Shown here in pieces: positions 26,970-38,304 of a stretch of 45,108 nucleotides of DNA (positions are counted from its first letter, which is position 1; every line of letters begins with the position of its first letter). The position numbers and the translations under genes were made by a program. The stretch is taken from positions 1 through 45,108 of the forward strand of contig ONLD01000011.1 of assembly GCA_900318565.1 (NCBI GenBank). The letters run 5' to 3'. The notes below the pieces were generated by a model. The model had not been told where the DNA came from, did not search any database, and saw only the letters and a program-made list of their open reading frames with translations. The DNA comes from an uncultured Bacteroidales bacterium. GTDB lineage: Bacteria; Bacteroidota; Bacteroidia; Bacteroidales; UBA932.

Positions 26970-27330
26970 AGCATTTTTCCGGAATAGTAAACCCGAAGGA
27001 AGGCAAGGTCTGCCAGAACCGGGACTCAGGGAGCGAAAACAGCAAAGAAACGCCCGTTTGCTATGGCTGTTTCCGGATCTTTGTCGGCTTCCGGCCAACT
27101 CCGTTTCGAACAAAATACGGCATATTCTGTCCCGAAGTCCTGACGACCGGTGCTCCGGGACAGAAAGCGGATATTTTCGTCCGAAGCCCTGACTGCAGGT
27201 TCTGCCAGGACAGAAAACGGGATTTATTGTCCAGAAAGTAGTTTTATGATGATTTTCGGACAGGAAACGGCAATCATTGTCCAGAAAAACATTATATTTA
27301 CAACGAGGGTCTTATCCCGAAACTTGAATT
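26970..27330. other. Non-coding stretch upstream of the RAYT gene
   Basis: No gene is seen here. It holds an inverted repeat at 27041-27062 (AGCAAA/TTTGCT, nested in AACAGC/GCTGTT), then the four-unit palindrome array at 27108-27282. A weak -7-like TATATTTA lies at 27292-27299 before the transposase ATG; it has one mismatch to the usual element. Confidence 0.6.
27108..27282. repeat. Upstream palindrome array, four 25-bp units, 50-bp period
   Basis: Units are at 27108-27132, 27158-27182, 27208-27232 and 27258-27282, start to start exactly 50 bp. Each begins GGACA (GAACA in the first) followed by an A-rich stretch and CGG, and ends TGTCC or CGTCC. The ends pair (GGACA with TGTCC), so each unit can form a short hairpin with the CGG in its loop. 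The 25-bp linkers are partly conserved in the first two intervals (GAAG-CCTGAC) and diverged in the third. The array ends 48 bp before the RAYT start codon and looks like a REP/BIME-type array. Confidence 0.8.
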
Positions 27331-28254
27331 ATGAAATCTTTTTCTGAACTTGAGGGCAAGTGTGCCCTGCTATTCAATGAGTTCCTGCCCTACTGGCATA
27401 TTTGGACTCCCGAAAACCACCCTGTGTTCCTACCGGACAAAGATGCGTTCAAGGCTGCGATGAATATCCTCGCAATATGCGCCTTGATGGTCCCCGAAGT
27501 CAAAATCATCACTTTTCAGCTGATGACAAACCATCTGCATCTGACAGTTTCCGGGTCCAGGGCAGATTGTATGAGGCTATTTTTATTGTTCAGCCGGCAC
27601 CTCACAAAATACCTTAAGGGCCGCGGGCTTTCGGCCGGGTTGTCGTTCGGAGCAGTGTCGCCCCGCCCGGTGGAGAGCATCCAGGACCTGCGAAATGTCA
27701 TCACCTACAACAATCGGAACGGATACATAGTAAGCCCGGACGAGACTCCCTTTTCCTACCCTTGGGGAGCCAACTCATATTACTTCAACTATGCGGCGAA
27801 AGCAAGATACGGCGAATCGGAAAAGTATCTGAATCGGGAGAGTAGGAGACAAGTGTTGCACTCGCACGTCGCGGATATGCTTAAACGAAAGATAGTCATC
27901 ATCGATGGGTACGCCTGTCCTATGGGGTTCTGCGATATTGCACTTGGCGAAAGTATGTTCCGATGCGCTTCACACTATTTCAGGGAAGTATCCCGGAATA
28001 TCGAGTCGCAGAAAAAGATAGCAAAGGAAATCGGAGAGAGCATCTTTTACACCGATGATGAGTTGTTCGGTGTAGTGCTGTCTGTCTGCCAGGATAAATA
28101 CAACGGCCAACGGCCCTCCCTGCTCCCGGTATCTGCAAAACAGGAGCTTGCGTTGTTTCTCCACAAAGAATACAATGCCGGCAATAAGCAAATCCAGCGG
28201 ATGCTACGGTTGGACCCGTCAGCCGTAGCGGCAATGTTCCCGCAAAAGTTCTGA
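27331..28254 (+). CDS. RAYT-like HUH transposase (Y1_Tnp / IS200-like family)
   Basis: This 307-residue protein shows the REP-associated tyrosine transposase pattern. The metal-binding HUH motif is FQLMTNHLHLTVSG (His 68, His 70). The catalytic tyrosine is probably Tyr 126 in LRNVITYNNRNGYIVSP, followed by the family's YPW segment (FSYPWGANSYYF). The C-terminus (QELALFLHKEYNAGNKQIQR) resembles a helix-turn-helix. RAYTs cut single-stranded DNA at short palindromes and are linked to the spread of REP elements. It is flanked on both sides by regular palindrome arrays, which supports the assignment. No terminal repeats of a classical insertion sequence are seen, so it may be a domesticated, single-copy enzyme. 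Confidence 0.8.
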   Translation: MKSFSELEGKCALLFNEFLPYWHIWTPENHPVFLPDKDAFKAAMNILAICALMVPEVKIITFQLMTNHLHLTVSGSRADCMRLFLLFSRHLTKYLKGRGLSAGLSFGAVSPRPVESIQDLRNVITYNNRNGYIVSPDETPFSYPWGANSYYFNYAAKARYGESEKYLNRESRRQVLHSHVADMLKRKIVIIDGYACPMGFCDIALGESMFRCASHYFREVSRNIESQKKIAKEIGESIFYTDDELFGVVLSVCQDKYNGQRPSLLPVSAKQELALFLHKEYNAGNKQIQRMLRLDPSAVAAMFPQKF

Positions 28255-28268
28255 CACCTCCCATTACG

Positions 28269-28446
28269 GGACAAAAATCGGCAATCTCTGCCCCCACAAC
28301 CGGCTGATGCCCAACTTCCGGACAAAAATTACCGGTTTCTGGCCCGATAACAGGCTGACGCCCAACTTCCGGACAAAAATCAGCGGTTTCTGGCCCGATA
28401 ACCGGCTGGCGCCCAGTCTCCGGACAAAAATCAGCGGTTTTTGTCT
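28269..28446. repeat. Downstream palindrome array, four 25-bp units, 51-bp period
   Basis: Units are at 28269-28293, 28320-28344, 28371-28395 and 28422-28446, start to start exactly 51 bp. Each begins GGACAAAAAT, contains CGG in the middle, and ends in TGGCC, TGCCC or TGTCT. The last unit has a perfect GACAAAAA/TTTTTGTC stem. The 26-bp linkers are well conserved (…AAC.GGCTG.…GCCCA.…CTCC/TTCC). The array begins 15 bp after the RAYT stop. Units share layout and orientation with the upstream array but differ in sequence, as if each array expanded separately. Confidence 0.85.
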
Positions 28447-28463
28447 CGGCTAACGAAATGCCG

Positions 28464-37197: not shown

Positions 37198-37205
37198 CAT
37201 CTTTG
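37198..37205 (+). promoter_or_regulatory. Possible -7 promoter element of rsmE (CATCTTTG)
   Basis: CATCTTTG differs from TAnnTTTG by one base and ends 8 nt before the rsmE ATG at 37214. It lies divergent to the isomerase-like promoter, 13 bp away. Confidence 0.45.
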
Positions 37206-37213
37206 TGCCCGGT

Positions 37214-38044
37214 ATGGAAATTTTCTTCAGCGAAAATATAGACGGCTCCTTCCTGAGTCTCGACCAGGAGGAATCCGCACACTGCGTCAGGGTGCTGCGG
37301 CACCGCTGCGGCGACGAGGTCTGCGTCATCGACGGACACGGGAATTTGTATCGTTGCACTCTTGTGGAGGCTGACGCCAAAGGGGCCGTGGCCCGTATCG
37401 ACAGCCTCGAGAAAGGATTCGGAGCGCATCCATACAGGCTGACTATGGCGGTCTGCCCCACCAAGAACATCGACCGCTACGAGTGGTTCGTGGAAAAGGC
37501 TACGGAGATTGGGGTGGATGTGGTCGCGCCGGTAATCGGAGAGCGTTCCGAGCGCAAAATTCTTAAGACAGAGAGGCTTAAGAGACTGGTGCTGTCGGCG
37601 GCGAAGCAGTCGCTCAAAGGCACCGTGCCGGTGGTAGAGGAGCCCTTGAGCGTGCGGGACTTCATCCTCGCCGCTCCCGAGCACGCGCTGAAAATGATTT
37701 GCTATTGCTTCGACGGGCAGAAATTCACCATCCCGGAACTGCTAGCCGGCAGGGGGGATGTGTCCCCGGACCGTGACCACCCGTGGTCACGTAAACGGGA
37801 GGGGCCCGCGCCGTCCGGCGTGGGAGGGATGAGCGAAGCGAAGTCCGGGGACACATCCCCCCTGCCGGCGGAAGATTCCGAGCCTGAAATATGCATCCTG
37901 ATAGGACCGGAAGGCGATTTCAGCCCCGAGGAGGCGGCCCTTGCGCAGGAGCGCGGCTGGCTGCCCGTCACATTAGGAAAAAGCCGCCTCCGGACGGAGA
38001 CGGCTGCACTTGTCGCTGTTACGCAAGTTTACTCGGCTTTCTGA
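37214..38044 (+). CDS. rsmE: 16S rRNA (uracil-1498-N3)-methyltransferase RsmE with in-frame insert
   Basis: RsmE methylates U1498 of 16S rRNA using S-adenosylmethionine. The SPOUT-fold signatures are present: YEWFVEKATEIGVDVVAPV, IGPEGDFSPEEA and LGKSRLRTETAALVAVTQV. The ATG at 37214 is preferred over a GTG three codons upstream. The protein is 276 residues, about 40 longer than usual. The excess is a single Gly/Ser/Pro/Arg-rich block at ~179-219 (GRGDVSPDRDHPW … KSGDTSPLPA) encoded exactly by a palindromic DNA element. The insert falls just before the knot-forming IGPEGDFS segment, in a position likely to be a surface loop, so activity may be kept. Confidence 0.93.
   Translation: MEIFFSENIDGSFLSLDQEESAHCVRVLRHRCGDEVCVIDGHGNLYRCTLVEADAKGAVARIDSLEKGFGAHPYRLTMAVCPTKNIDRYEWFVEKATEIGVDVVAPVIGERSERKILKTERLKRLVLSAAKQSLKGTVPVVEEPLSVRDFILAAPEHALKMICYCFDGQKFTIPELLAGRGDVSPDRDHPWSRKREGPAPSGVGGMSEAKSGDTSPLPAEDSEPEICILIGPEGDFSPEEAALAQERGWLPVTLGKSRLRTETAALVAVTQVYSAF
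37745..37869. repeat. 125-bp palindromic element inserted in frame in rsmE
   Basis: The ends are perfect 26-bp inverted repeats, 37745-37770 and 37844-37869 (beginning GCCGGCAGGGGGGATGTG on the left arm). Between them lie two more hairpins: CGTGACCAC/GTGGTCACG with a 2-base loop (37772-37791) and CGCCG/CGGCG extended by further pairs (around 37806-37825). The whole can fold into a three-way or cruciform structure. It adds about 41 codons without breaking the reading frame, and both strands are free of stops in the relevant frames. It resembles in type, not in sequence, the Rickettsia palindromic elements that sit within genes. Confidence 0.9.
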
Positions 38045-38304
38045 CCGCCTTCGCAAGCCTGGCCTTCGGCCTTCTCGCCCTGGCAGCACTCTTTGCCTTC
38101 TTCCTTGCACTTGTCGCAGCACTCCTTGCCCTCTTCCTTGCACTCGCCGCAACACTCTTTGCCTTCTTCTTTGCACTTGCCGCAGCATTCTTCAGCCTGC
38201 TCGACAGCAGCGGCCTCACCTTCAGCCTGCTTGTTCTGGTTGTTGTTACCGCAAGAACAGAGGCAGAGGGCCGCGATAGCCATAGAAATAATAACCTTCT
38301 TCAT
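38029..38304 (-). CDS. Cysteine-rich repeat lipoprotein (91 aa)
   Basis: The signal MKKVIISMAIAALCLCSC gives lipid Cys 18. The mature part is a low-complexity tandem repeat of about 12 residues, ECCGKCKEEGKE, repeated three to four times with small changes (ECCGECKEEGKE, ECCDKCKEEGKE, ECCQGEKAEGQ). It has over a dozen cysteines in CC and CxxC pairs among Lys and Glu. Metal binding or redox buffering at the envelope is a reasonable guess; no family is recognised. It has its own promoter at 38349-38356. Its 3' end overlaps the convergent rsmE gene by 16 nt. Confidence 0.8.
   Translation of the reverse strand: MKKVIISMAIAALCLCSCGNNNQNKQAEGEAAAVEQAEECCGKCKEEGKECCGECKEEGKECCDKCKEEGKECCQGEKAEGQACEGGQKAE

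Follow-up and report, generated by a model that had tools for sequence, protein, structure and literature searches.

What is a 125-bp palindrome doing inside the reading frame of rsmE in an uncultured Bacteroidales bacterium? The locus lies in contig ONLD01000011.1, of which the whole stretch of 45,108 nt that was analysed is referred to here as the window, and an earlier inspection of these letters had suggested a mobile element tolerated inside genes. The parts of the rsmE copy are listed in Table 1.

Table 1. Parts of the palindromic element in rsmE and of its host gene, in window coordinates
Feature	Position	Strand	Basis
Whole palindromic element, in frame in rsmE	37745..37869	+ (core strand)	sequence; family matches
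Left arm, 27 bp, copy-specific sequence	37745..37771	+	inverted-repeat and arm comparison
Right arm, reverse complement of left arm	37843..37869	+	inverted-repeat comparison
Conserved core, 71 nt, common to family	37772..37842	+	comparison between copies
Core hairpin P1, CGTGACC-(ACCCGT)-GGTCACG	37772..37791	+	covariation (helix 2)
P1 loop CCCGT, pseudoknot 5' strand, partner 37795-37799	37780..37784	+	covariation (helix 3)
ACGGG, pseudoknot 3' strand	37795..37799	+	covariation
Core hairpin P2, CCCGCGCC-GTCC-GGCGTGGG	37805..37824	+	inverted repeat; covariation (helix 4)
P3 mini-hairpin motif GCGAAGC; longer stems in some other copies	37833..37839	+	hairpin counts; DNA stability of the motif (PMC4686876, consulted in part)
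Host gene rsmE, open across the element	37205..38044	+	reading frame, Pfam, structure match, AlphaFold2

The palindrome and its host enzyme

The two arms are 100% complementary and 71 nt apart, so that the perfection of the inverted repeats first described holds, their length being 27 rather than 26 bp. The two further hairpins reported between the arms are present as well, both belonging to a pseudoknotted core that lay beyond the reading of a single copy. A 135-nt stretch with the element has a minimum free energy of -98 kcal/mol (z = -8.8), none of 200 shuffles being as stable. Several other copies have outer ends similar to the outer GCCGGCAG of the left arm.

The 279-aa frame of rsmE is uninterrupted by the element and retains IGPEGDFSPEE and LGKSRLRTETAAL, in agreement with the original prediction of an in-frame insertion free of stop codons in an otherwise intact protein; the opposite strand, likewise predicted to be open, is so over the element (37702-37971, 89 aa). 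Extra length was also borne out, the figure of about 41 added residues becoming some 34-40, directly before ILIGPEGDF, when set against three element-free orthologues: the LKMICYC motif and IGPEG are separated by 71 residues here versus 37 (G064), 31 (G008) and 33 (G015), in a comparison for which 20 of 30 orthologue loci were parsable. The best solved relative, 3kw2, aligns to RsmE residues 5-184 and 228-276 with only 10 residues between them, and an AlphaFold2 model built with 31 orthologues has a mean pLDDT of 87.3, residues 192-200 and 204-223 falling below 50. The enzyme is predicted to be intact, with a disordered loop at the insert. Following rsmE, a small ORF on the - strand (38029-38304) begins like a lipoprotein and contains KCKEEGKECC repeat units.

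A dispersed family with filled and empty sites

The rsmE palindrome is one of many copies scattered through a gut Bacteroidales genus. In a DNA search of its own genome, the inner part of the block matched many places with quite different arms, and covariance models returned 26 matches at E<=1 (model from six copies) and 25 at E<=0.01 (second model, from 99 copies); the genome-wide multiplicity expected from the first reading is thus borne out by about 25 copies. Among 41 genomes searched at E<=0.001, the family was found in 21 of 25 of the genus, own genome included, and in none of 16 from other families, with 284 copies summed over the genus table and a maximum of 39 detected in one genome. 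The confinement to the genus that this search suggested was overturned across the order, where at least 5 of 247 genomes matched (the own genome, one in another genus of the same family and three in other families), as many as 14 copies being counted outside the genus; since 15 candidates were scored per genome, 5/247 is a lower bound. To judge from record names, two of the four records with the rsmE site come from yak omasum or rumen surveys. Searches of phage and plasmid collections gave no match of the element and viral contigs no occurrence of one exact 19-base core pattern, and phage or plasmid carriage was rejected on that basis. A literature search, mostly at abstract level and with thin coverage of subscription journals, returned no account of this palindrome family.

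Copies occur within and between genes in the own and related genomes, as the nucleotide search proposed with the original prediction should reveal for a mobile element. Some open frame encloses 73 of the 113 copies analysed, and 41 rows have at least 40 residues on either side of the insert. Nine of 20 scanned proteins have Pfam domains that either run across the insert or lie on each side of it, and are named here after these domains: RsmE, a PP-loop protein (by reading, presumably TilS-like), a nucleotidyltransferase, riboflavin kinase/FAD synthetase twice, a UvrD/PcrA helicase, a UPF0004 radical-SAM protein, a Radical_SAM_N protein and a ferredoxin-type protein. A domain was found on one side only in six of the 20, a DnaX-type protein among them, and no family in five.

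Orthologous linkers free of the element were likewise found as anticipated. The block is filled in four of 80 RsmE orthologue loci and is not conserved across orthologues; the methyltransferase linker is filled in five of the 24 genomes where it is readable (G000, G011, G063, G004 and G127), and a linker of the gene that we take, from its sequence motifs, to be uvrA is filled in G176 and G043 according to model matches and partly in G011 by reading (21 of 26 loci parsed). That the element is neither unique to rsmE nor shared by all RsmE orthologues supports its interpretation as a mobile in-gene palindrome. Two intergenic element-free sites show neither arm between strongly diverged flanks, and some empty sites, such as the uvrA linker of G169, may be losses. 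Other hairpins in the same linkers of other orthologues mark these as insertion-tolerant places. By eye, a second hairpin family has TTGGCCCTTACGAAC, or the complement of it, between two complementary arms (rsmE linker of L056; intergenic in L255), and a third kind of core, CACGTCC..TCTCGCTG.., stands between complementary arms in the methyltransferase linker of G176 and G043 (L306, L308). The uvrA gene of L352 carries a short REP-like hairpin, CATTCTGAGCGAAGCGAAGAATC, read as HSERSEES, with a one-base variant in rsmE of L073.

Complementary arms around a covarying core

The set of 113 copies consists of 122 matches minus nine, seven of them weak or atypical (L127, L128, L129, L149, L150, L089 and L028) and two repeats (L174 of L145, L027 of L131); L379-L391, 13 of 20 further stretches, stand outside the analysis, and copies sampled from genomes other than the own are mostly the best-scoring, a subset of all matches. 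Over 2724 arm base pairs there are 97 mismatches (96.4% paired) and 51 copies are perfect, counts that lean to perfection as arm extension halts at mismatches; median arm length is 26 bp. In a 99-copy alignment, 95.8% of 3782 cells are paired, the covariation score is 0.734, as against 0.184 in shuffles and no more than 0.10 with partners slid, and changes on both sides are seen in every one of the 20 arm pairs; being fitted to the model structure, this alignment favours the arms, P1 and P2, and the pseudoknot is absent from the model. Pseudoknot pair 35/50 is GC in 54, TA in 29, AT in 12 and CG in two of the 99 sequences, and the variable positions read GT/AC in 44, TC/GA in 28, GC/GC in 10, AT/AT in eight and AC/GT in three. 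Judged by this covariation, the core of most copies is an H-type pseudoknot plus hairpins, in the order arm, P1 with the pseudoknot loop, AGGGG, P2, AGGGATGAGCGAAGCGAA with mini-hairpin P3, arm. Some copies are partial (the core of L006 is 10 nt shorter and that of the G011 uvrA copy is incomplete), and those of L014 and L021 are longer than usual. In G004 and G011, copies L137, L179, L184 and L208 seem by eye to have a further outer stem past the arms, with letters such as GGAGCGGATGC and GCGCAGCGGAGC recurring in the gap.

A hairpin with a cGNAg loop on a stem of at least 2 bp is found in 102 of 111 cores (200 shuffles: mean 9.8, maximum 18). On stems of at least 3 bp, cGNAg accounts for 60 of 97 triloops, and GNRA for seven of 54 tetraloops. 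GNA and GNNA loops on two or more G-C pairs are described, in the available part of PMC4686876, as extraordinarily stable DNA mini-hairpins, GCGAAGC having a Tm of 78 C. Their occurrence in most cores makes a folded single-stranded DNA form a live possibility, to which they point short of proof.

Covariation of the pseudoknot and helices would also fit a structured pseudoknot RNA with a closing stem, spread through the genome, in which ordinary selection for RNA folding maintains the pairing of the arms. This explanation also draws on P2 pair 63/140, which is G.U in 45 sequences, and on the arm mismatches of the main set, which on the core strand comprise 65 G.T, 13 A.C and 19 others (G.T to A.C 43:8 when counted once per copy, and 14:3 in the 22 own-genome copies of this set). 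The skew, however, did not recur in 17 other copies (4:4) or in 27 picked by core similarity alone (9:6); the covariance-model choice of copies may therefore have favoured it, and as proof of a one-strand fold it failed in the held-out copies and is suggestive at most. The prevalence of cGNAg triloops over GNRA tetraloops, and the presence of the element in either orientation within rsmE, argue further against a structured RNA. In one stretch of the window and 12 loci, moreover, the element drew no Rfam match at the gathering score, two microRNA models scoring far below it, and a known RNA family was rejected on this result. We regard the explanation as a whole as improbable. A TPP riboswitch (68 bits) adjoins an element copy in G019 (L192, 494-590).

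Arms and cores have diverged to different extents. Among copies of G014 core identity is 0.96 and arm identity 0.56, and among those of G007 the values are 0.93 and 0.49; as shuffled arms would give 0.26, a weak arm consensus remains. Such near-identical cores between very different arms make copying of the whole unit insufficient without later turnover or core conversion. Arms differ among most sampled copies, yet recur in two genomes: three G576 copies have near-identical arms, L372 in a clearly different context (two of the three adjoin a second shared element and may represent a single larger duplication), and in G169 the arms of six copies grade into one another, one compensated change separating L392 from L409. 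The idea that the arms are mini-hairpins of their own, as in REP pairs, was rejected, their self-folding being hardly above that of shuffles (mean z -0.21).

At sites shared between genomes, the core may face either way. In rsmE, the L025 copy (G063 by position) and that of G023 are identical at 23 of 31 arm positions, with four changed on both arms, and the arms of L030 and L034 are 0.95 identical; despite orthologous arms, the cores of both pairs are in opposite orientation. Opposite orientations are also seen at sites C, D, E and J between arms without clear orthology, whose identity is at most, or barely above, that of paralogues; these may be independent insertions. Orthologous cores at site D are 0.61-0.72 identical and paralogous averages reach 0.73-0.82, as if cores had been converted within genomes. 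The dnaX arms (12 of 21 positions identical) are more diverged than their flank (79%). Flanks of the best sister pairs are some 80-88% identical, a divergence that leaves insertion ends short of base resolution.

These patterns could tentatively be read as mobility of the core alone, which would home into existing palindromes or build its arms by inverted duplication of the target flank. Near-identical cores with different arms in one genome suit this idea, as does the G021/G024 pair, in which the arms are 0.95 identical but the cores 0.79, and so do L410 and L393 of G169, which have the inner arm in common and not the outer. It would also explain native codons within the palindrome at uvrA: in both G011 and G176, codons native to UvrA (NGPA, SGPG) make up the outermost 10-11 bp, and their reverse complement is found at the opposite end. 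The recurrence of near-identical arms at different loci in G576 and G169 speaks against it, as does the empty methyltransferase linker of G023, which has neither arm of its near relative G063.

Spread of the family and likeness to known elements

The site comparisons, with flanks about 80-88% identical in the best sister pairs, revealed neither a target-site duplication nor a transposition event, and no mover came to light. The original prediction had named a RAYT 10 kb away as one possible mover. RAYT relatives are present in 22 of 25 genus genomes and the element in 21 of 25, and the REP-like hairpin of the same uvrA linker in L352, of which rsmE of L073 has a one-base variant, has the GAGCGAAGCGAAG module in common with the family core, which would fit an ordinary REP element driven by this RAYT or a relative. 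Yet 10 loci of RAYT relatives, covered over some 1.5 kb to either side as far as the contigs extend, are without the element, and five readable RAYT flanks carry other repeats. G013 and G014 have copies without a detected RAYT relative and G009, G010 and G018 the reverse, several genomes being incomplete; G013, which is 96% complete, has no Y1_Tnp match either. No association of the RAYT with the element was found in these comparisons, and we hold a RAYT-driven origin to be very unlikely. In the window (27080-28460), the RAYT-like gene is flanked by repeats CCGGACAAAAATC(A/G)GC, the RAYTs of related genomes carrying other arrays; its product (27331-28254) is a divergent protein with a TNHLHL motif and no Pfam match above threshold, a relative of which, at G000:C27, also matches Y1_Tnp.

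Dispersal, filled and empty orthologous sites, in-frame residence in linkers, covarying helices with a pseudoknot, complementary copy-specific arms and core flips are, at the level of sequence comparison, established, and we consider it probable (roughly 75%) that they reflect a mobile palindrome of non-autonomous, REP/MITE-like type that is tolerated in frame, template switching being what re-matches its arms and flips its core. The family would spread as an arm-core-arm unit moved in trans by some enzyme, perhaps on folded single-stranded DNA. After insertion the arms would drift, and template switching by DNA polymerase in the hairpin would copy one arm onto the other, restoring complementarity, sometimes invert the core, and at sites such as uvrA extend the palindrome into native flanking codons. 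Within genes, the copies to survive would be those that lie in disordered linkers and leave the frame open, as in rsmE. Template switching is consistent at once with arms that match again, with core flips and with palindrome growth into native codons; the process is reported to make the arms of inverted repeats alike while turning the spacer round (PMC8604942) and to produce multibase compensatory changes in stems (PMC8794818). More speculative is the further proposal that the family works as a folded DNA strand even in translated genes, with a natural DNA pseudoknot, GNA mini-hairpins, arms free in sequence, a mover that reads structure, and template switching.

Some of the puzzling insertions, roughly 35-45 residues in length, that conserved enzymes carry in uncultured Bacteroidales are explained by the family. 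With it, two questions can be put to the test: how long DNA palindromes remain perfect even as they drift, and whether what a bacterial mobility enzyme recognises is a single strand of DNA folded with a pseudoknot.

Among known systems, in-frame palindromic elements are already on record in Rickettsia and among REPs. Rickettsia palindromic elements, to which the original prediction compared the insert, are palindromic repeats of about 150 bp found in frame in unrelated genes, according to the sections consulted of PMC10969869 and PMC3733652. They resemble the present family in forming a stable palindrome of 100-150 bp (here 125 bp, z = -8.8) and in their in-frame insertion in unrelated genes (here 9/20 by Pfam, with function from domains alone); the comparison stands for behaviour, as a likeness by description rather than by sequence. 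They belong to another phylum, and a conserved core with a covarying pseudoknot between copy-specific arms is a feature of the Bacteroidales family. REPs are, in the same excerpts of PMC3733652, 20-40 bp elements with an unpaired GTAG or CGTC end, found within genes that include uvrA and a UvrD/REP helicase, CGTC repeats without a dedicated transposase being mentioned for Bacteroidetes; RAYT subclasses and REP types for this phylum are given in the accessible part of PMC6006769. The likeness to these GTAG and CGTC super-families, REPINs included, lies in dispersed palindromes, some of them inside genes. The rsmE copy, at 125 bp and with several covarying helices, does not match a single hairpin of 20-40 bp, nor does the absence of the element from the flanks in 10 RAYT loci match the REP/RAYT system. 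By reading, no unpaired GTAG or CGTC stands at the foot of the rsmE hairpin; the letters GTAG do occur in some copies, e.g. of G016.

As for MITEs, arms here differ in most sampled copies, recurring in G576 and G169, and flanks are too diverged to set duplication ends. Template-switch inverted repeats show the same arm homogenisation and spacer inversion, the cases in the abstracts of those two papers being yeast genes and RNA genes with no dispersed family. Palindromes within or between organelle genes include the RHE/double hairpin elements of sponge mitochondria (PMC2800124) and the coding palindromes of Nematomorpha (PMC6649704), both consulted in part; the sponge elements, as far as that source was available, have conserved stems and variable loops, the reverse of the Bacteroidales family. 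The family thus behaves like the Rickettsia and REP kinds but fails the REP size, and what sets it apart is the combination of up to 39 detected copies per genome, sites common to species, and a conserved core between arms that change pairwise.
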